Shown here one piece after another: positions 9,594 through 20,813 of a stretch of 23,234 bases of DNA. The stretch's first letter is position 1, and every line of letters starts with the position of its first letter. The notes under the pieces were generated by a model, which worked only from the letters and a program-made list of their open reading frames with translations, had not been told where the DNA came from and made no database searches. Source of the stretch: a virus. Location: positions 1-23,234 of the IMG/VR virus record IMGVR_UViG_3300020074_002410; one strand, written 5' to 3'. The translations under genes were made by a program, and so were the position numbers.

Positions 9594-10490
9594 TCAGAAG
9601 TTCACGAACGCGGGCGTGGTCCGGGTGTGCAGCTCCTGCCGCCCGATGATGGTCCCGACCGTGTTGTGTGCCAGGACCAGCGCGTTCCGCGCCTGGTTCA
9701 GGTTCTCGAAGAGATTCCCCATGGGCGGCAAGGGGCACTTCACGTGCTGCGGCCTCACCGGCGTGGTGAACCCTGGGAGCTCCGGCAAGGGCAGGCCCGT
9801 GCCCAGCAGGGCCACGGCCTTCCGGTTCCAGGTCTGCGCCTCCTGGTACATCTTGATGGCCTTCTTCAGGGACTCGGACGGGATGTACTCAATGAACATC
9901 TCGTTGAGCACGTCCGCCGCTGGCTGGATCAGAAGGAGCAGGGGCTGGATGTTCTTCACCAGGGCGTTGATCTCCGAGAACCCACAGTTGGCCGAGATCT
10001 GGAGCTCCAGGTCGTTGTACAGCAGGGCCTCTTCCCAGAGAGCGATGAGCCCCGTGATCCGCTTGTCGAGGTCCACGAACAGGGAGATGATCTCGTCGAT
10101 GACGCCGACTAGGTACTCCAGGACATCCAGGGCCATCGGGATGTAGGCGAGGGGCGGCACCCAGCCGAACAGGGTGATGATGGCTTTGGCCAGCTTCTTC
10201 AGGCACTGGAAGAGCTGCGTCGGGTCCGGGGGCAGGATGGACTTGGGCAAGGACATCATGCAGTCGTAGATGGCCTTGATCGCTTCGATGAGCTCCAGGA
10301 GCTGCTTGATGGGCGCCAGGGCGAGCTGGACGTTGTCCATCATCTGGGCGATGTACTCGCTCGGATCGGGGATCCGCCGGATGGCCGCCCGGGCCTTCTC
10401 CAGGATCCCGTAGGTCGGGATGTGCAGCTTCTCCGGGTCGGGCGGGAGCGACCAGGTGCTGCAACGGATGATGAGGGGACCCATGGGCAT
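9594..10490 (-). CDS. Hydrophobic helical protein between spike and gp25, function unknown
   Basis: This 298-residue protein matches no family I recognise. It is almost entirely helical and unusually hydrophobic. Residues 97-150 form a long hydrophobic stretch (KKLAKAIITLFGWVPP, then YIPMALDVLEYLVGVIDEI), and residues 178-192 form another (VKNIQPLLLLIQPAADV). The N-terminus is Pro-rich (SLPPDPEKLHIPTYGI), and the C-terminal third has a second Pro-rich linker (LPLPELPGFTTP) followed by a polar helix. Its place between the spike gene and the gp25-like gene is normally held by PAAR-like tips or baseplate components. It could be a baseplate plug, a tip-associated protein or a membrane-inserting factor released on injection. 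The start and reading frame are well supported by position (27 nt after the spike stop); the ribosome site is weak. Confidence 0.65.
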   Translation of the reverse strand: MPMGPLIIRCSTWSLPPDPEKLHIPTYGILEKARAAIRRIPDPSEYIAQMMDNVQLALAPIKQLLELIEAIKAIYDCMMSLPKSILPPDPTQLFQCLKKLAKAIITLFGWVPPLAYIPMALDVLEYLVGVIDEIISLFVDLDKRITGLIALWEEALLYNDLELQISANCGFSEINALVKNIQPLLLLIQPAADVLNEMFIEYIPSESLKKAIKMYQEAQTWNRKAVALLGTGLPLPELPGFTTPVRPQHVKCPLPPMGNLFENLNQARNALVLAHNTVGTIIGRQELHTRTTPAFVNF

Positions 10491-10516: not shown

Positions 10517-11137
10517 CTAGATGTCGCTCTTCCCGAGGGAGCTCACCCGGCGTCCCTGGATGCGGACTTGGCCGTCCGCCGAGAGGTCCAGGAGCCCCTT
10601 GCTGTAGAGGAAGATGGCCGTGGCGGACTCGATCGTGATCACCTCGGAGTTCCCGTTGGGGCCAGACGCGGCGTCCAGCTCGATCACGGAGCCTCGCGTC
10701 TTGCTCTGGATCACGACGCGCCGGTCGTCGGCCTCGGAGACGACCATGACTTGCACCTTGTCATCCTCCCAGAGGACGGTGCGCTGCCTCGCCTTCTCCG
10801 GCGTGGCGCCCTGGGAAATCCCCGAGGGTCCGATCCGCACGCCCGCTTCCGTGCCGTAGTACCCGGTGTAGTACACGGCCTCGACGTGCTCCCCCCGGTA
10901 GACCCCGCCGATGAACTGGATCAGGACCTGCGCCCCTACCGGTGGTGGCGGGTACTGGGAGCCCTGTCCCTTTCCTCCAGCCCCAGGCCAGCCCATGGGC
11001 AGGATCGGGAAGGGCGTCTTGGGATCGTAGACCCCAGGGATGAAACACCAGACCCTGCCCGTCGCGGTGGCATCGTCGTTCTCCACGACCACGCCCCACA
11101 CGGGACCGAACAGGATATCGTCGAGGTTGCGGCTCAT
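10517..11137 (-). CDS. gpV-like baseplate spike (OB-fold)
   Basis: This 206-residue protein resembles the gpV / gp5 N-terminal OB-fold family that forms the trimeric central spike. Residues 8-90 carry the OB pattern: LFGPVWGVVVENDDATATGRVWCFIPG, then the GWPGAGGKGQGSQYPPPPVGAQVLIQFIGG stretch, where Pro-rich turn and VLIQF strand are typical. Residues 120-206 read as successive short strands (VQVMVVSEADDRRVVIQSK, then SEVITIESATAIFLYS, then LDLSADGQVRIQ), matching a beta-helix spike. It lacks the lysozyme domain of T4 gp5. AAGGA precedes the ATG by 9 nt. It follows the hub gene as in P2 and Mu-type tails. Confidence 0.8.
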   Translation of the reverse strand: MSRNLDDILFGPVWGVVVENDDATATGRVWCFIPGVYDPKTPFPILPMGWPGAGGKGQGSQYPPPPVGAQVLIQFIGGVYRGEHVEAVYYTGYYGTEAGVRIGPSGISQGATPEKARQRTVLWEDDKVQVMVVSEADDRRVVIQSKTRGSVIELDAASGPNGNSEVITIESATAIFLYSKGLLDLSADGQVRIQGRRVSSLGKSDI

Positions 11138-11164
11138 CTAGGTGATCCTTGTCTCGTCTCCGTC

Positions 11165-12568
11165 TTACCTCGCCCGGAGCGCGGGGGGCGCCTTCTCCGC
11201 GCGGTAGGCTCCAGGGTCTCCCTTCACGTACACGGTATCATAGGCGACCTTGCCCGTGCTATCCGTATATGCTTCGTCCCCGGTCAGGTAGGGCGCGGTC
11301 TTTCCCCCGGTGATCCCTGCCTTGGGGGGCTGCTTCAGGTGGAGCTGGCACCGGTAGTCCTCGCCCATGTACATGTGCCGGACCTCGTCGATGCGCCAGA
11401 CCCGATCCACGAACGGGGAGTTGGTGCCCTTGATCTGGACCAGGTATCCCGCGAGGAGTCGAGGATTGCCCACGGTCTCCACGTTCAGGACGAACGCGCG
11501 GAGGTGTCGATCCAGGAACCTGCGCTTGGCCTTCTCGCTCATGGTGGCCTGGGTTCCCGTGGACCAGAACTTATCCTCCCGGGAGAGGGCTTCCCAGGCG
11601 CTCGGGTTCTGCTGCCGGATCTTCTCGTAGACTATGTCCAGGTTCACGTCGGCCACGCCCCGGTCCAGGGCCGCGATGTCTCCGGTCAGCATGACGCGCA
11701 CGTCCGGGTTCCAGCCACGCCCCTTGATCGTGCGGGGCAGGGGAAGCCGGAAGTCCGCGTCGATGGAGAGACTGAGAATGTCGGGGCCGGCCCCGTAGGT
11801 GAACAGCTCCACGATCTCGTGCTTGGCCCCGGGCCAGGTGGACTGGTGAAAGTGGAACCCCTTGTCGTCGATCTTGTACACGTACCCGAGCTTGCGGGCC
11901 ATCATCTCGACGAACTGGCCATCCGTCATGCCCTCGGGGATCAGGACCTGGCCCCCTTGCACGGTGTCCGGGGCGTCCTGGATCTTCTGGTACTCCCGGT
12001 CGAAGCCGTTGCGCGTGGCAATCTCCTGGATCAACTGGCCAACGGTCCGTCCGGATACCTGCCTGGGGCCACTAGACTTCAGAAGGAAGTCCCGCCCGGC
12101 CAGGTCGCTCGTCGGGGGATAGCCCTTCTTGGCCCGTGGCTTCTTGGCCATGGACTCGGGAGGGACCCTGTTCTTCCAGGAGAGCTTGGTGGGCGACCCA
12201 CCCCCGGGCGCGTTCCGGTTCCTCCCGAAGTAGGTGAGCCTGCGCTCCCCCTCGCCGACCATGGGGTTCTCGACCCCGTACACGCCCACGCCTCCACGGG
12301 CCCTGTTGACGATGAAGGTCTTCCAGGGGAAAGCCCCGTCGAGATAGCCGATGCGGATCTGAACGACCAGGCCCGCCATGAGGGTCTCGACCTGCGTGAA
12401 CTGCCCGTCCCAGTTGTCTAGGACCCACTCGATGTGATCGAACTCCCGGGTCCGGTCTGTGTAGATCAAGGACAGGGTCCGATCCCGGAGCAAGCTCGGG
12501 TCGAGCTCCCCTCCCGGCACGGAGATGTGAAGCTGCCGGTTCCAGGTATCGAAGTCAGTGACCGGCAT
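11165..12568 (-). CDS. gp27/VgrG-like baseplate hub protein
   Basis: This 467-residue protein has the layout of gp27, P2 gpD and the N-terminal half of VgrG, the trimeric hub that adapts the sixfold tube to the threefold spike. It starts with MPVTDFDTWNRQLHIS and a tube-like beta barrel (residues ~10-110), followed by a Lys/Pro-rich linker (~145-165). A LysM-like/late-control segment (TVGQLIQEIATRNGF, then VLIPEGMTDGQFVEMMARKLGYVYKI) at about 190-250 is characteristic of phage late control D proteins. The C-terminal half returns to barrel strands (RVWRIDEVRHMYMGEDYRCQLHLKQ) near 405-430. Usual length for the family is 350-470. It sits between the LysM-like protein and the spike, as expected. 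Confidence 0.82.
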   Translation of the reverse strand: MPVTDFDTWNRQLHISVPGGELDPSLLRDRTLSLIYTDRTREFDHIEWVLDNWDGQFTQVETLMAGLVVQIRIGYLDGAFPWKTFIVNRARGGVGVYGVENPMVGEGERRLTYFGRNRNAPGGGSPTKLSWKNRVPPESMAKKPRAKKGYPPTSDLAGRDFLLKSSGPRQVSGRTVGQLIQEIATRNGFDREYQKIQDAPDTVQGGQVLIPEGMTDGQFVEMMARKLGYVYKIDDKGFHFHQSTWPGAKHEIVELFTYGAGPDILSLSIDADFRLPLPRTIKGRGWNPDVRVMLTGDIAALDRGVADVNLDIVYEKIRQQNPSAWEALSREDKFWSTGTQATMSEKAKRRFLDRHLRAFVLNVETVGNPRLLAGYLVQIKGTNSPFVDRVWRIDEVRHMYMGEDYRCQLHLKQPPKAGITGGKTAPYLTGDEAYTDSTGKVAYDTVYVKGDPGAYRAEKAPPALRAR

Positions 12569-13614: not shown

Positions 13615-16600
13615 CTACTCCTGCGTCTGGGATCCCGCTATGGGGTCCCCTTCCTTGATGTTCGTGACCCGGACCTCGGGGTTCTGCACCCACTTCGCCA
13701 GAAGAGGGATAAGCTGGCTCAGGACAGGGGCCAGGGCAGTCCCGAGGGCTGCACCTCCGACGGCAGCCAAGGCCTTGGGACGTCCTCCTCCAATAGCTTG
13801 AATGGCCTCCCAAGAGGATCCCTCTTGTGGAAGGTAGGCCTCAGATCCGGGTTCTCCTCGCAATCTACCGGCCAGCCCGATAGCCTCGGCCAGGACTGCC
13901 GGCATATCCGGGATAATCCCGCCGATCCGGCCCAGCCACTGCGACGAGATTGGCCGGGCTCCAGTCATGGGAGACTTCCCGCCCCGCACACCAAGGAGCC
14001 CCTCTGCGTATAGCAACCCTTCTGGGCCGGATTGCGCCCAGGGCGTCGCGTACTTTCCGCCGAAGCCCCTGTACCCTTCACGGGTTATACCCAGTCCAGG
14101 CTCCCGTTGTGCGATATCCACGCCCGCGATGTAGGCCATGCCCATCTGCCGCAGGATCGTTTCTCGCTGCTCGGGAGTGAGCGGCCTACCCGCGCGATGG
14201 GCCTCGGCCAGGGTGCCTCGCACGGCCTCCATCGCGCCGACGCCCCCGGTAAGCTGCTGGAGGTTGGCCATGGCCTCGCCGAAGCCGCCGTACTTGCCCG
14301 TGGCGACCATGCGAGCGATTCGTGCTCCGGCTGCCCCCTTGGCCCGGGTCATCTGCCGGTAGTACCGCTGCTCGTACTTGGCCTCCGGGGTCGGGGGCTC
14401 GTACCCGAACAAGCCCTTCCACTTGTTGAGCACGTTATCCATTTCCTTGGTGCCCATCTGGAGATATCCGTAGGCGTCCTTGAAATGGCTCACGAGGTCT
14501 CGGCCCATGGCCTTGAAGCCTTCCCAGATATCGCGTGCCGTCTCCTTCTGCCGCTCGTAGAGTTCCGTCTGGATCCGGGCTATCCCTTCCGCGAGGGCCT
14601 TCCGTCCCTTGTCGCCGAAAGTTGCTTCCGCCGTATATTTCTCCACGTAATACTGCGGCGTGTAGATCAGCTTCCCGGCAGCCAAGGATCTGGCACGCAC
14701 GTCTGCCAAGGCCTTGGCTCGTCGCTCCTCGTCGTAGGCAGACATCTTGCCCGTCATGCGCATCAGGACTTCTGCCGCAGCGCCGACGATGAATACGGGA
14801 ATGATTGCCTTTCCGGCCGCGAGGGCTGCAGATCCAAGCCCCTGCATGGCACCTTGTGCCTGGGACAGCATGGCCCCGATGCTCCCTTGAGGCGGCGGGG
14901 CCACCTGCCAAGGAGTCTGCGTCAGCCTCCTTCCAAGCTGTAGCGGAGCCATGCCCGCGATGGGAGGTGCCATGGGGGGTGGAACCATAGGAGCCATAGG
15001 CCCTGGAGACCACGCGGCTGGTATTGGATACCTGGATAGGACGGCGGCTTCCCTCTGCGCCTCGAGAGCTGCCATCTGTTGCTGCCTGGAGGCCTGCCAC
15101 AGGGAAGCACGGCCTGCAGCTTCTTGGCGTGCCGCTTGCGAGACTGGAATGCTCCAACCGGCTGCACGGGCTTGTCCTGCCAGGAGAGCCTGGACATTGA
15201 CGGGGAAGCCTTGCGGGATTCCTCCCCTTGCTCCTTGCGAGGCGGCGGATCGAGAAGCCGAAGCCCCCATAGCAGCCGCTGCGGCCAGAGCTGCCGGAGA
15301 CGTGGCCGCAGCGAGCCCCCCGGCTGCGGCAGCGGAAGCACCCGCAGCGGCTGCGACGGCAGCTCCAGTCCCGCCTGCGGCTGCGCTGGCCCCGGCGCCC
15401 CCGGCTCCAGCGGCCCCGGCGAAGAGACTCCACTCCCGGATGTTCGCGGTGACGTTGGCCGCGATCCGGCCCACGCCCCAGAGTGCGGCCTTCAAGGCCC
15501 AGGCGGCGGCCGAGACGGTGCCTATGACCAGGGCCCACTTGATCATGGTGCCGTAGATAGGATGCTCGACGAGAGCCGTGAGCGCGCTCACGATGGGAGA
15601 GAGGGTCCTGGCCAGCTTGTCCAGCATGGGGAGGAGCTTGTTCCCCAGGGCTACGGCCAGGGTGTAGAAGTTCTCTCGAAGCACTTCGACCTGGGCGCCG
15701 GCGGTCTGTAGGTACTCCTCCTGGGCCTGCTTGATCGATCCGCCCGACTCGCGCAAGGTCTCGTTCAGGAACTGGTAGGCCTGGACGCCCTTGCGGACCT
15801 TGCCCTCGTTGTCCACGATGCCCTTGGACAGAGAACCGAGCATGGCCAGGACAGGCTTCGCGGCGGCCGTGCCCATGGATTCCCGGATGACGTTCCGGAC
15901 CAGGACCGGGCTCTCCTCGTACCTGTTGGCCATCTCGAGCATGATCAGGCTCATGTCTCGCACGCGGCCCGTGACGTCCGTGACCTCGATCCCGAGCTGG
16001 CCCAGGCCCGCCCGCGTCTTGGGCGAGCCCAGCTCCGTAGCCAGCCGGATTATCTCCGTGGCTGCCCGCTCCGAGGAGGGCATGGTCCGTCGAGCCAGGA
16101 GCATGGACTTGAGCATCGCGTCGAAGGACTGGCCTCCGGCCGTGGCTGCCATGCCTAGCTTGCCCATGATCTTGGACAGGTCCTGGATCTGGATGCCCAT
16201 GCCTCGAGCTCCGGCATAGACCTTGTCGGCGGCAATCTCCGCCGCGTCCCCGGTCATGCCGAAGCCCTTGATGATGTCACCCATCATTATGGCCGCGCCC
16301 TCCGGGGTAACCTTCCCGAAGCTGGCCATGGCCAGGCCCAGCGTGGCATGCAGGTTCTTGATGGCAGCTTCCGAGGAGCCCGTGGCCTGCCGCAGCCGGA
16401 GCATGGACTCCAGGGTTTCCTTGGGCCCGTAAGGCGTCACACGGGCGGCTTCCTTGGCCGCCTTGTAGAACTTCTCCATCCCCTCTGTGTTCTCCCGGAC
16501 GAGGGTCTGCAACCGGCGCATGACCATCTGGACGTCCATGGCCGGCTTGACGAGGGCGGTCAGGCCCCGAGCCACGTACCGGGCGGCCATGACGGCGGTG

Positions 16601-16749
16601 AAGGCACCGGCGAGCTGCCGCAGACTGCTGTTGAGGTGAGTCGCTGCCTGCCCCGCTTGCTGCGCCGCGCCGCTGAAGCTCATGAGCTGCCGGCTGGCGT
16701 CGTCCCGGGCGACAAGGCGAATGCTGGCAGTCCAGAGGTTCAGGGCCAT
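13615..16749 (-). CDS. Tail tape measure protein
   Basis: This 1044-residue protein sets tail length and is threaded inside the tube. The N-terminal ~390 residues are helical with the pattern of phage minor-tail tape measures (IMGKLGMAATAGGQSFDAML, then RAGLGQLGIEVTDVTGR near 247-262). Residues 397-430 are hydrophobic and probably membrane-seeking, residues 442-505 are an Ala/Gly low-complexity stretch, residues 573-600 are Pro-rich, and a second hydrophobic segment lies near 640-662. The C-terminal ~350 residues hold Lys/Arg-rich helices. At roughly 0.15 nm per residue it would specify a tail of about 155 nm (family rule of thumb, not measured). The start ATG has no good ribosome site and lies 14 nt after the stop of the -1 frame of the chaperone gene. 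Confidence 0.88.
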   Translation of the reverse strand: MALNLWTASIRLVARDDASRQLMSFSGAAQQAGQAATHLNSSLRQLAGAFTAVMAARYVARGLTALVKPAMDVQMVMRRLQTLVRENTEGMEKFYKAAKEAARVTPYGPKETLESMLRLRQATGSSEAAIKNLHATLGLAMASFGKVTPEGAAIMMGDIIKGFGMTGDAAEIAADKVYAGARGMGIQIQDLSKIMGKLGMAATAGGQSFDAMLKSMLLARRTMPSSERAATEIIRLATELGSPKTRAGLGQLGIEVTDVTGRVRDMSLIMLEMANRYEESPVLVRNVIRESMGTAAAKPVLAMLGSLSKGIVDNEGKVRKGVQAYQFLNETLRESGGSIKQAQEEYLQTAGAQVEVLRENFYTLAVALGNKLLPMLDKLARTLSPIVSALTALVEHPIYGTMIKWALVIGTVSAAAWALKAALWGVGRIAANVTANIREWSLFAGAAGAGGAGASAAAGGTGAAVAAAAGASAAAAGGLAAATSPAALAAAAAMGASASRSAASQGARGGIPQGFPVNVQALLAGQARAAGWSIPVSQAARQEAAGRASLWQASRQQQMAALEAQREAAVLSRYPIPAAWSPGPMAPMVPPPMAPPIAGMAPLQLGRRLTQTPWQVAPPPQGSIGAMLSQAQGAMQGLGSAALAAGKAIIPVFIVGAAAEVLMRMTGKMSAYDEERRAKALADVRARSLAAGKLIYTPQYYVEKYTAEATFGDKGRKALAEGIARIQTELYERQKETARDIWEGFKAMGRDLVSHFKDAYGYLQMGTKEMDNVLNKWKGLFGYEPPTPEAKYEQRYYRQMTRAKGAAGARIARMVATGKYGGFGEAMANLQQLTGGVGAMEAVRGTLAEAHRAGRPLTPEQRETILRQMGMAYIAGVDIAQREPGLGITREGYRGFGGKYATPWAQSGPEGLLYAEGLLGVRGGKSPMTGARPISSQWLGRIGGIIPDMPAVLAEAIGLAGRLRGEPGSEAYLPQEGSSWEAIQAIGGGRPKALAAVGGAALGTALAPVLSQLIPLLAKWVQNPEVRVTNIKEGDPIAGSQTQE

Positions 16750-16763
16750 GATGGATCAGTCTA

Positions 16764-17090
16764 TCACGGCAGTCTCCGAGGAGACACACTTGCCATAGGC
16801 ATTTCCATGTCCTCGCCGGCCATGGGAGTCACAGGGGGCTCTCGACCCTTCTTGTCCCGGGTCGCGCGCTGGCGCTGGATGGCCAGCTCGTTCATCTCCT
16901 CGATCAGCCAGAGGGGCAGCTTGCGGATCTCCGAGTACCCCCCGAAGTCCACGTAGCCGCCCATCGGCTCCCGCCACATCAGGTCCAGAACTGTCCCAGC
17001 GTAGTCGGTGGGGTGGATCCGGTGCCCGAGGAGTAGCTCTGCCGCGACCGTAGCCTCTTCTCGGGATCCACACCGAAGAAGGCCATGTCC
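16764..17090 (-). CDS. -1 frame extension of the tail assembly chaperone (GT-type)
   Basis: A second reading frame overlaps the end of the chaperone gene and runs on to a TGA at 16764. Entered by a -1 slip at 17090-17096 it adds 108 residues to the first 277, giving about 385. It encodes a coherent, helical, acidic domain (EEATVAAELLLGHRIHPTDY, then a WREPMGGYVDFGGY segment and LPLWLIEEMNELAIQRQRAT), unlike the Ser/Thr-rich tail of the unshifted frame. This is the arrangement of lambda G/GT and of many phage chaperones upstream of the tape measure, where the shifted product tethers to the tape measure. There is no credible independent start, so expression by frameshifting is inferred. A join at about 17057-17062 (after DPE/K) would also give a continuous product. 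Confidence 0.75.
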   Translation of the reverse strand, partial: GHGLLRCGSREEATVAAELLLGHRIHPTDYAGTVLDLMWREPMGGYVDFGGYSEIRKLPLWLIEEMNELAIQRQRATRDKKGREPPVTPMAGEDMEMPMASVSPRRLP

Positions 17091-17920
17091 AAAGGGAGCA
17101 CCGTGGTCTGCTTCCTCGTGCAGTGGACGCACTCGAAATCCATGGAGGTGTCCACCCCACCGAAAAGCCGGTCCACGTCCTGGTCGAGCTGCTGCTGGAA
17201 CGACCACGGGGCCGTCTTCCAGAACTGGAGCAGCGGGTGCATCCCCGTGATCGTGCGCGACCCGACCTGCAAGCTCTCGATGTGCACGCAGGTCTGGATG
17301 GCAATGGCCCTCGAGGGCTCCGCCCCCTGCTGCTTGGCCATCTGGATGGAGTCCGCTCCCAGGATATCCCGCAGGATCACGGTGATGATATCTCCTTCAC
17401 CCTTGCCCTCACCCTTGCCCTTGCTCTCTCCCGTGGTCTCCTTGGTCTTCTCCTTGGCCTTGCCCTTGGCGCGGCCGGAGCCCCTGGGAGGCCCCTGGGA
17501 CAGGTCGTCCAGCACGTACTGCCGGGCGATGCCCTTGCCCGTCTTGAGGGCCTCCAGGGCTTCCTGGGAGTAGGGGATGATGGTGAAGTCCCGGAGGTCC
17601 ACGTCCTTCACGCCCGCGCCCTTGCCACAGAAGCGGCAGCTCGGCTCCAGCTCCAGGGTGGTCGGGGGCGTGGCCGCCCGGACCGCGATGTTGGCCAGGG
17701 TGATGTCGCTGTGGGAGACCTTGTTCAGGTCCACCTGCTCTCCCACGGGCAGGGTGAGGTAGGGCCCCGGGTCGAGGACCTTGCCGGCCACGAGCCGGAG
17801 CATGAGCAGGGGCAACGGAGGGGAATCCTCGCTGGTGGAACCCAGCAGATCCTCGATGTCCCCGAGGTTCCAGGGACGCGCCTCGAAGACGAGACCGGTC
17901 AGACACTTGATGGGAAACAT
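16979..17920 (-). CDS. Zinc-ribbon tail assembly chaperone / T4 baseplate-type protein
   Basis: This 313-residue protein sits between the tube and tape-measure genes, where tail assembly chaperones lie. It has two CxxC knuckles, Cys95-x2-Cys98 (SCRFCGKG) and Cys264-x2-Cys267 (FECVHCTRK), followed by VLPLDMAFFG, which matches the end of the T4 baseplate (gp26/gp51-type) family with its zinc ribbon and LPL-x-x-x-FF motif. Residues 148-176 form a Lys/Gly/Glu-rich linker, probably disordered, that is unusual for the family. AAGGAG lies 7 nt before the ATG. The last ~25 residues (RSRQSYSSGTGSTPPTT) are low-complexity. A slippery heptamer at codons 276-277 leads into the -1 frame. Function: probably binds and delivers the tape measure during tail assembly. 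Confidence 0.72.
   Translation of the reverse strand: MFPIKCLTGLVFEARPWNLGDIEDLLGSTSEDSPPLPLLMLRLVAGKVLDPGPYLTLPVGEQVDLNKVSHSDITLANIAVRAATPPTTLELEPSCRFCGKGAGVKDVDLRDFTIIPYSQEALEALKTGKGIARQYVLDDLSQGPPRGSGRAKGKAKEKTKETTGESKGKGEGKGEGDIITVILRDILGADSIQMAKQQGAEPSRAIAIQTCVHIESLQVGSRTITGMHPLLQFWKTAPWSFQQQLDQDVDRLFGGVDTSMDFECVHCTRKQTTVLPLDMAFFGVDPEKRLRSRQSYSSGTGSTPPTTLGQFWT
17090..17096 (-). promoter_or_regulatory. Programmed -1 frameshift site CCCTTTG
   Basis: The mRNA heptamer C CCT TTG is in the exact X_XXY_YYZ register of the chaperone frame (codons 276 CCT and 277 TTG). After a -1 slip both tRNAs re-pair with CCC and TTT. An imperfect hairpin can form downstream, with TTCGG at 17073-17077 facing CCGAG at 17060-17064 around an 8-nt loop, about 12 nt after the heptamer. 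Site and register are seen directly; slippage is inferred. Confidence 0.65.
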
Positions 17921-17944
17921 GAGTGAGCTCCTTGAACGTTGTCA

Positions 17945-17961
17945 GGGACCCGGGAGGTCCC
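17945..17961 (-). other. Small hairpin between tube and chaperone genes
   Basis: A 6-bp stem (GGGACC with GGTCCC) with a 5-nt loop lies in the 74-nt gap after the tube gene. It has no U-tract, so it is not a classical terminator. It might protect the highly needed tube message or reduce read-through to the chaperone gene; it could equally be chance in GC-rich DNA. Confidence 0.3.
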
Positions 17962-17994
17962 CTGTGTCAAGCTCTGTGTCGAGGACTTGTGATT

Positions 17995-18474
17995 CTAGGA
18001 CTGCCTCTCGAAGTACCAGTAGGTGATGGTCATGGACTCGATGGTGACCTCGTCGGAGCCGAAGTTCCAGTCCCCCGGGGTGTAGGCCACGGGGAAGGCC
18101 GACCGGAGGACCCACGAGTTGACGTAGGCCCCGGTCCGGTCCATCTCGTACAGGACGATGTCCTGGGCTAGGTCCTTGTGCTCCAGGCCGGACCCGATGG
18201 GCAGCTTCGCGGCCATGTTCACGTTCTGGAGGATCCAGTTGTGCATGGCGTAGTCCACGCCCACGCCCCGGGTGAACGAGACGTCCGCGAAGGTAGCCTT
18301 CATCGGCTCCTTCATCGGCGCCATGGCCCCGCCCTCGCCGTAGCTCGCGGCGGCGACGGTCATGCTCAGGCCGCTGAAGGTCTGGAATGCCATCCAGCCC
18401 CCGAAGTGGCTGGGCATCTGCACCTGGAACCGGTAGGCCGACCGGAACTTTCGGTTTCTCGCCTGTGCGCCCAT
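17995..18474 (-). CDS. Tail tube protein, T4 gp19 family
   Basis: This 159-residue protein is clearly of the T4 gp19-like tail tube family, which stacks as hexameric rings inside the sheath. Typical signatures are seen: SAYRFQVQMPSHFGGWMAFQTFSGLSMTV near the start (family F-x-V-x-I...F-x-x-V-S-G-L), YGEGGAMAPMKEPMKATFADVSFTRGVGVD at residues ~45-74 (family Y-x-E-G-G...G-x-x-x-x-P/x-K-x-x-F-x-D-I/V-T/S-x-x-R-G), and W-I-L-Q-N-V at 80-85. The same fold is used in extracellular contractile injection systems. AAGGAG lies 9 nt before the ATG. It follows the sheath gene by 62 nt. Confidence 0.92.
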   Translation of the reverse strand: MGAQARNRKFRSAYRFQVQMPSHFGGWMAFQTFSGLSMTVAAASYGEGGAMAPMKEPMKATFADVSFTRGVGVDYAMHNWILQNVNMAAKLPIGSGLEHKDLAQDIVLYEMDRTGAYVNSWVLRSAFPVAYTPGDWNFGSDEVTIESMTITYWYFERQS

Positions 18475-18536
18475 CTTGATCTGCTCCTTGGTGCTCGTCT
18501 CCTACCTGGGCTCCCTTGCTGCCTTCACTCCCTGGC

Positions 18537-20813
18537 TCAGGTGGTGCTGCCCTGGCCGGTCAGGGCGGCCTGGATATACTGCTGCAGCTTCCGGTCGTCC
18601 TTGTAGATGGTCAGCTCGCCGAACCGGCCGGCCTCGGACAGGGCCAGGCCGACCAGGACCTTGTAGGTCTCGGCCGCCTGCACCTGCGGGTTGTTGATGC
18701 TCTCGCCCTCGGGGTCCGTGTCCACCTGGAACGCCTCGGAGGCGTCCTCGGAAGCGAACACGTCCGTGCCGACCCACTGGAGCAGCTCGCCCTCGATGCG
18801 GAGCTTGAGCTCCCGGCGGAAGCGCTCGCTCATGCTCTGCGTGCGGACGGCGTTCATGTAGATCTTGCAGAGCTTGATCACGTAGGCGACGAACCGGATC
18901 TGGCCCACGCTTTTCCAGTTGCCCGTCGCCTTCCCGGACATCACGTCGTCCATCCAGACGCTGAAGCCGCCGGTCTCCGGATTCGTGTCCGCGACGATCG
19001 GGTTCACCCGGTAGTCCGTGAGGTAGTCCCGCACGGCGGGCGCATTCACGGAGGTATCCTCCACGCCCGTGGCGATGTTCAGGGCCCCGAAGTTGTGGTT
19101 GCCGGGCTGCTTGCCCATCTTCTCCCGGTACAGCTCGGAGTTCTTGACGTAGCGCCCGACGACCGCGCCGGACGGCGCGACGGTGATCGTGTCCCCCTGG
19201 CCGTACACGGTCTTGTCCGGGTTGGCCATCTTGATCCAGGGCCAGTACAGGGACGTCCTGGACTCCGAGGCCGTGAGGGAACCCGCGTGCGCACACACGC
19301 CCTGGTAGTCCAGGCTCGCGGGCGGGTCGGGCACGAACACCACGGTGCCCTGCTTGTCGTCCGAGCACCAGAGGGTGGCGGCGTTCTGGAACGCGGCCGA
19401 GGTCTCGTCCGGGCAGATCAGGAGGTCCCCGTCGATCGTGTCGTCGAACAGATGCAGGCCCGTCCGGTAGGTCTCGGACCCGATGAAGTCGTTGTAGTCC
19501 AGGGCGGAGAGCCCGTCCTGCCCCCCGGTGAGCGCCTGCGCGGTCACGTTCGTGGGCCTGCGCTCGAGCTCCGTCCCTCCCGCGCTCAGGTCCGTGACCT
19601 CGATCAGCTTGGACCCGCCGCCCTTGATGTTCACCTGGGTCACCACGTAGTCGGGCGACGTGGCGAGCATCGTGCAGTTGGGATACCTCTTCTGGAACAC
19701 CCCGGCCCGGTACTCCACGAGGTCGAACCGGGAGGGTACCCCGCTCGTCGCGGCCTCGATGGTGGTGGTGATGGTGTTCCCTCGGGACCCGTAATACTTC
19801 CCGTCGATCCGGATGGTGCTCTGGGAACCGGCGTTGAGCCCGGCGTGGAGGTCGTTGTCCAGCCCCAGGTCCGTGTCGGCCGTGGAGATGGCCTGGATCT
19901 GGATGCTTCCCGCAGCGCCGGCCACGTTGGTCCGTACGGTGAGGTAGCCCCCGGAGCTGCCCACGGTGATCCCGCCGATCCCCGCCTCGAGCCAGGTCTT
20001 CACCTCGGCGAGGGTCACGGAGAAGTGGTTCGCGCAGTTGCCCGACCCCGTCGAGGCGGACACGGGGAACTTGAGCTTGGAGTTCGCGTCGGCGCCGTAG
20101 GCGCCCGCGCCCTGCGCCACGCACTGGATGGAGGACCCCGTGCCCTTCTGAAGCGTGGTCACGCGGACCCTGCCCGTCGCGACCGTGGCCACGACGCCGG
20201 ACACCTGGGCGTTGATCACGGCGGCCACCTCGGCTGCCGTCGCCACGGTGATGTCCACGAAGTCCCCGGAGACGAACGTGACGGTCTGGTTCGACCCGCC
20301 GTTCACCTTGAGGACGAGGCTGTCCCCGTTGGCCAGGGCATAGGTCTCGCTCTCGAAGGAGTCCATGGTCGCGGCCACGGCCGAGAAGGTGGCCGTGCCC
20401 GGGGCGCCTCCGTCCACGGCCGCACGGATGGTCTCCCCGTGATCGATAGAGAAGGGCGCGGCCACGGTGCCTGTGACGGTGCCGTAGGTGATCGTGCCCG
20501 TCGCGGTGGTGAAGTTCCGGGTGGCCTTGGCCGCCGAGGCCGGGTTGGCCCCGCTCATGTGCACGACGCGGCCGTACAGGAGCTTCTTCAGGCCCATGTC
20601 GAACAGGTTCTTCACCGCGATGGGAGCCTGTCGCCCGGAGATGAGCCCGCCGTACATCTCCTGGAACTGAGGGTAGCTCCGGATTTCCTGGCGGGTGAGC
20701 GGGCCCCACTCGGTGACCCCGAGCATGAGCAGGACGTCGATGTCGAGGAAGACGCTGCTGGGGATCGTGGAGGTCCCCGACTTCACGTCCACGCGGCTGC
20801 GACCGGTTGCCAT
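18537..20813 (-). CDS. Contractile tail sheath protein with large inserted beta domain
   Basis: This 758-residue protein is the sheath subunit that contracts to drive the tube through the host envelope. The C-terminal half has the conserved sheath core: GVCAHAGSLTASESRTSLYWPWI at ~505-527, RDYLTDYRVNPIVADTNPETGGFSVWMDD near 595-623, FVAYVIKLCKIYMN at 641-654, and a helix-strand C-terminus (ETYKVLVGLALSEAGRFGELTIY) that makes the inter-subunit strand exchange. Residues ~100-330 are an insert not needed for the core fold. It carries copies of an adhesin-like beta module (ALANGDSLVLKVNGG, then DITVATAAEVAAVINA, and a later SVTLAEVKTWLEAG). AAGGAG lies 9 nt before the ATG. The sheath assignment is firm; the insert's role is open. 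Confidence 0.93.
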   Translation of the reverse strand: MATGRSRVDVKSGTSTIPSSVFLDIDVLLMLGVTEWGPLTRQEIRSYPQFQEMYGGLISGRQAPIAVKNLFDMGLKKLLYGRVVHMSGANPASAAKATRNFTTATGTITYGTVTGTVAAPFSIDHGETIRAAVDGGAPGTATFSAVAATMDSFESETYALANGDSLVLKVNGGSNQTVTFVSGDFVDITVATAAEVAAVINAQVSGVVATVATGRVRVTTLQKGTGSSIQCVAQGAGAYGADANSKLKFPVSASTGSGNCANHFSVTLAEVKTWLEAGIGGITVGSSGGYLTVRTNVAGAAGSIQIQAISTADTDLGLDNDLHAGLNAGSQSTIRIDGKYYGSRGNTITTTIEAATSGVPSRFDLVEYRAGVFQKRYPNCTMLATSPDYVVTQVNIKGGGSKLIEVTDLSAGGTELERRPTNVTAQALTGGQDGLSALDYNDFIGSETYRTGLHLFDDTIDGDLLICPDETSAAFQNAATLWCSDDKQGTVVFVPDPPASLDYQGVCAHAGSLTASESRTSLYWPWIKMANPDKTVYGQGDTITVAPSGAVVGRYVKNSELYREKMGKQPGNHNFGALNIATGVEDTSVNAPAVRDYLTDYRVNPIVADTNPETGGFSVWMDDVMSGKATGNWKSVGQIRFVAYVIKLCKIYMNAVRTQSMSERFRRELKLRIEGELLQWVGTDVFASEDASEAFQVDTDPEGESINNPQVQAAETYKVLVGLALSEAGRFGELTIYKDDRKLQQYIQAALTGQGSTT

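Follow-up and report, generated by a model that had tools for sequence, protein, structure and literature searches.

From the sequence comparisons described here, it is very probable that a single gene of the phage yields two tail assembly chaperones, one short and one long, through a -1 ribosomal slip, and we hold it highly likely that the heptamer CCCTTTG is the site at which that -1 frameshift is used. The gene lies on the minus strand of the window (i.e. the whole 23,234-nt stretch of viral DNA that was analysed), where the order is tail tube, chaperone and tape measure, and the predicted sheath gene at 18537-20813 indicates that the tail is contractile. An independent relative from another metagenome, G003 (IMGVR 3300033150_001001), was reached via its major capsid protein (78% identical) and has a tail module collinear with that of the window. 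The features of the region are as follows.

18537-20813, minus strand: tail sheath protein (phrog_15814, 1.8e-78; weak tblastn matches to annotated tail sheaths)
17995-18474, minus strand: tail tube protein of T4 gp19 type, directly upstream of the chaperone (PF06841, 6.6e-19; phrog_4542)
16979-17920, minus strand: zero-frame chaperone gene, an open frame of 313 aa (45-52% identical to G003; gp26-type by profile)
17627-17638, minus strand: zinc-ribbon-like motif, first Cys pair, C95-x-x-C98 (both Cys conserved in G003)
17120-17131, minus strand: second Cys pair, C264-x-x-C267 (both Cys conserved in G003)
17090-17096, minus strand: candidate slippery heptamer C_CCT_TTG, re-pairing as CCC TTT (in register; identical in G003)
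17060-17080, minus strand: conserved zero-frame FFGVDPE, with Phe-Phe as TTC TTC, not slippery for -1 (G003 alignment)
16977-16981, minus strand: TGATG, the zero-frame stop overlapping a -1-frame ATG (G003 has no start codon at this place)
16764-17096, minus strand: -1 frame after the slip, predicted C-terminal extension of the long form, 108 aa past the slip codons (open in the window and in G003)
13615-16749, minus strand: tape measure protein, directly downstream of the chaperone (PF10145, 6.6e-15; phrog_28, 3.6e-22)

The family phrog_15814 is listed as of function unknown; from the weak matches to annotated sheaths and the position before the tube gene it is probably a tail sheath family.

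In the proposed mechanism most ribosomes would stay in the zero frame and yield the 313-aa zinc-ribbon chaperone of T4 gp26 type, presumably the commoner product. A minority would slip back by one base, with tRNA-Pro and tRNA-Leu on C_CCU_UUG re-pairing on CCC UUU, and would then read 108 further codons as a C-terminal domain to give the 385-aa long form. Judged by the parallel with lambda G/GT and gp26/gp51, coating of the tape measure may fall to the short form and recruitment of the tube or hub to the long form.

The zero-frame protein and its extension

The sequence-only reading had described the zero-frame product as a zinc-ribbon chaperone of T4-baseplate type, and profile comparison bears this out. 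Searches of the chaperone against Pfam, PHROGs and PDB sequences returned no family, and tblastn against phage records gave weak matches only. Starting from the sheath, the comparison passes through BRock (a Streptomyces phage) and SP-15 (a Bacillus phage) to cyanophage gp26; in these two phages the annotation of the gene that separates tube and tape measure is baseplate or hub protein. A gp26-type protein profile compared with the chaperones of the window and G003 scored 94.4% over 210 columns (hhalign), with 12 other window proteins at ≤1.0% and the reversed chaperone at 0.3% as controls. On this profile evidence the zero-frame protein is a relative of the T4 gp26-type (TAC-N) chaperones, and it shares with them the two CxxC-type Cys pairs. 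A Lys/Gly/Glu-rich low-complexity insert at chaperone residues ~139-176 (window 17395-17505) is missing in G003.

The extension showed no detectable likeness to gp51-type domains (TAC-C) in hhalign (0.2%), a comparison that had just two window-type sequences to draw on. AlphaFold on two-sequence alignments gave mean pLDDT values of 43 and 46, too weak for a fold search. The coherent, helical and acidic domain that had been ascribed to the -1 frame thus stands in a weaker form, i.e. it is slightly acidic only (16 D/E versus 14 K/R), and it looks helical in weak models (mean pLDDT 46). The T4 proteins gp26 and gp51 can be aligned to one another, with an additional C-terminal domain in gp51 (L043, 4803-6229), the pattern that would be expected if two genes replace a frameshift and one consistent with the work cited in PMC10885494.

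The heptamer and its conservation in a diverged relative

As first read, the heptamer is exactly in register: the zero frame (17920-16979) reads it as C CCT TTG and the -1 frame, which is the frame of the interval first noted (16764-17207), reads it as CCC TTT. CCCTTTG occurs once in the window (17096-17090, minus strand) and is the only in-register XXXYYYZ near the end of the chaperone gene, with none between it and the zero-frame stop. Both frames are open for ~230 nt, the figure originally given, when counted from the GTG at 17207, and for ~415 nt when counted from the preceding -1-frame stop at 17399. The -1 frame runs for 110 codons without a stop and, as described earlier, ends just before the tape measure, at 16764, 14 nt ahead of the tape-measure ATG (16749). 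The joined product computes to 277 + 108 = 385 aa, in agreement with the ~385 residues proposed. No RNA structure downstream of the heptamer beats shuffled sequence in folding without pseudoknots (z-scores near 0 in both the window and G003). Stimulatory structures of this sort are frequent in tail chaperones of the G/GT kind, though not universal.

Because 2.2 copies of CCCTTTG are expected in the shuffled window against the 1 present, and because long open frames are common at 65% G+C, the heptamer alone does not go beyond chance. On the aligned sequences, the excess over chance lies in its conservation in G003 and not in its mere presence. In G003 the heptamer recurs in register, the zero-frame stop falls at the corresponding position and the -1 frame is likewise open; the -1 frames of the two viruses match (tblastn, E 9e-15), and the two parts are not fused in frame there. 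The longest identical DNA run of the region between the two is 17 nt, CGGTGCTCCCTTTGGAC, and contains the heptamer. Across 12 genes aligned between the window virus and G003, the codons at conserved residues are 62% identical overall. In the same alignments only 1/19 of the CCT codons at conserved prolines is also CCT in G003, and only 1/9 of the TTG codons at conserved leucines is also TTG. Since the chaperone has a conserved CCT-TTG pair at the heptamer, the sole conserved CCT and the sole conserved TTG are the heptamer codons themselves.

This conservation evidence comes from one independent relative, G003, the only relative found that reaches the chaperone gene; the heptamer is kept in it, as the check proposed earlier had asked of relatives. 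Another contig, G001 (IMGVR 3300020222_002989), comes from the same virus: it shares 11.2 kb with the window at 99.97% and is identical at the chaperone site. Viral contigs scanned with the chaperone, extension, tape measure and sheath returned the same virus only, and alignments of the two sequences (window and G003) used as queries gave no additional relative. Neither G002 nor G004 matched the window's chaperone. A contractile-tail locus in a Chloroflexi assembly (L027), taken up as a genome contig match, was rejected with no tblastn match to the window's chaperone. For the phage lineage no close cultured relative was found in these sequence searches. In G003 the counterpart (17785-18604; L017, ~10786-11605) of the window gene at 9594-10490 is split over two frames by either an assembly error or a real frame change, and the window's gene is unsplit.

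Alternative readings of the two frames

The frame under conservation changes along the region. Upstream of the heptamer the zero frame is conserved at 23/39 positions between the window and G003, and from the heptamer to DPE it is conserved at 10/12 versus 5/12 for the -1 frame. From DPE to the zero-frame stop the three frames are about equal (BLOSUM 1.2-1.5 per residue), and past that stop the -1 frame alone is conserved (local score of 85 versus a shuffled mean of 22.5, sd 4.1), so that as the sole conserved frame there the extension bears the mark of selection as protein. The conserved frame therefore switches ~36 nt past the heptamer and not at it, which is a point against a slip at the heptamer. 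The imperfect re-pairing of the tRNA-Leu from TTG on UUU is another, and the folding result downstream of the heptamer, the single independent relative and the missing likeness of the extension to gp51-type domains weigh on the same side. The simplest reading of the alignment is that the short product needs its ...FFGVDPE end and that the first post-slip residues of the long product would be a free linker.

The place where conservation switches could itself be the site of the slip, near GAT CCC GAG (17060) and ~36 nt downstream, in which case the long product would keep FFGVDPE and run into EEATVAAELL. A second join near 17060 had been raised in the sequence-only reading, and the part of it that stands is the change of conserved frame, with the zero frame ahead up to DPE; other gp26-type genes also have their site at the Phe-Phe motif. 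The part that fails is the signal, as there is no slippery sequence at 17060 and no in-register XXXYYYZ from the heptamer to the stop. Moreover, CCCTTTG is conserved with rare codons, and zero-frame conservation up to its own end is explained by the short product. We regard a slip at 17060 as unlikely. If ribosomes reinitiated at TGATG (16981-16977), or began at some other internal start, the -1 frame would yield a separate small protein with no frameshift; this would accord with the TGATG overlap present in the window and with related phages in which the extensions are annotated as separate genes. In G003, however, the -1 frame has no ATG, GTG or TTG until 183 nt past the heptamer, beyond much of the conserved domain, and reinitiation leaves the conservation of the heptamer unexplained, so that we give this reading very little weight. 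One added G after GAG at 17060 would join both conserved parts, as would befit a single in-frame gene split by an assembly or sequencing error, but G003 has the same split in the same register in another metagenome and the overlapping contig G001 is identical at the site, which makes such an error barely credible. Taken together, the same split in G003 and the conservation of the -1 frame alone past the zero-frame stop render both assembly error and reinitiation unlikely.

Candidate frameshift signals in other gp26-type genes and known systems

The gp26-type genes that were inspected end at Phe-Phe (or Leu-Phe, or Phe-Leu-Phe) and have a further helical domain in another frame. Members of the -1 type have T TTT TTC (S-RIM8, S-CAM9, S-SSM5, S-H34, PA5oct, Atu_ph07 and LR756511) or T TTT TTT (phiM19 and XacN1). 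In SP-15, LIS04, GXN1, BRock, LuckySocke, pSt2308, GiJojo, LR756508 and Mel-JY01, as read from their sequences, a +1 shift would be needed to join the C-terminal domain (+1-type loci L030, 3700-3930; L031, 12690-12944; L033-L037; L039; L040). The motif in these +1 members is CTG TTT CGC (BRock, pSt2308 and GiJojo), TTT CAG (LuckySocke), GAA TTT TTT CAC (SP-15), GAG TTT TTT AGT (LIS04), TTC TTT CGT (GXN1), AAC TTT TTT TGG (Mel-JY01) or AAC TTT CTA TTC CCT (LR756508). The codon that precedes the Phe motif has T as its last base in 9/9 of the -1 members and in none of the +1 members. In cyanophage-type gp26 the terminal FF is TTTTTTC in 80/80 viral contigs (79 distinct proteins), counts that are not independent as the 80 loci (L052-L131) are related to each other. 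TTTTTTC is absent from every other FF site in these genes, and TTT accounts for 74% of their other Phe codons. From the cyanophage TTTTTTC a -1 shift would lead, in register, to the frame of gp51, and that frame is already conserved ahead of the point annotated as the gp51 start; gp51 of cyanophages is thus probably the terminal part of a fused gp26-gp51 product.

The Phe-Phe codons of the window and G003 are TTC TTC/TTT, preceded by C or G, which is no slippery sequence for a -1 shift; the window's predicted slip site CCCTTTG lies four codons upstream of them, unlike the sites at the Phe-Phe codons elsewhere in the family. We lean, by somewhat more than an even chance, towards the terminal Phe-Phe being the footprint of a frameshift signal, and towards lineages having switched between -1 (T TTT TTC/T) and +1 (without a T in front) as the neighbouring base changed. 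The window's signal would on that account have moved to the upstream CCCTTTG, leaving a long form without the motif, unlike the others. From the wider comparison a testable rule suggests itself for gp26-type genes, in which the direction of the shift, -1 or +1, would go with the base that precedes the Phe-Phe codons. On the same comparison, small ORFs now listed as genes of their own, such as cyanophage gp51, BRock gp135 and SP15_046, may well be frameshifted ends of the preceding gene.

The combination had been called less described, a claim that has to be given up in part: it is less unusual than that, since gp26 (TAC-N) and gp51 (TAC-NC) of T4-like phages are already published as chaperones (Vladimirov et al. 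2022, Virology 566:9-15, as cited in PMC10885494 and PMC12846349). As those two papers report it, the mechanism proposed in 2022 was a non-frameshift one with a short gene and a long fused gene. We accordingly dropped the T4 gp26/gp51 pair as a new observation, PMC10885494 and PMC12846349 citing Vladimirov et al. 2022 for it. The literature also holds -1 GTTTTT sites in other myovirus chaperones, with poly-T sites mentioned in T4-like ones (PMC12846349), a +1 shift proposed at TTT-CGC in HF1-like viruses (PMC7230728) and a two-gene form without frameshift (PMC2147016). Atkins et al. 2016 (PMC5009743) describe G-T frameshifting as common among long-tailed phages, T4 being the exception. Among the papers searched, none was found that deals with CCCUUUG as a frameshift site in phages. 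Since both frameshifting of tail chaperones and the gp26/gp51 pair of T4 are already known, what is new is a probable CCCTTTG version of that mechanism. Supported by conservation at the codon level, it would add to the phages with frameshifted tail chaperones a lineage for which no close cultured relative was found.

Like the T4-like gp26/gp51, the window has a profile-related zinc-ribbon chaperone with a predicted short and long form, but its two frames overlap in one gene, whereas T4 has two separate genes. In cyanophages, too, gp26 lies ahead of a gp51 frame and of the tape measure region; its terminal FF is encoded by TTTTTTC, and that of the window by TTC TTC. The likeness to lambda G/GT drawn in the sequence-only reading holds as one of arrangement, i.e. 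two frames that overlap immediately ahead of the tape measure gene, with a short form and one extended by a -1 shift (PMC5009743, and Xu et al. 2004 as cited there). The window's version differs from lambda in being a zinc-ribbon protein of a contractile-tailed phage with another heptamer, and a sequence relationship is not expected. Vandenendeviridae and Andersonviridae (PMC12846349) share the contractile tail, the -1 shift before the tape measure and a stop-free -1 frame; their slippery motif is GTTTTT and not CCCTTTG. HF1-like haloviruses (PMC7230728) have a frameshift pair between tail tube and tape measure and a contractile tail, but their shift is +1 at TTT-CGC. The HF1 chaperone is without the zinc-ribbon cysteines and was set aside as a homologue. 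The TTT-CGC motif of the HF1-like viruses is also present in Streptomyces phage BRock.
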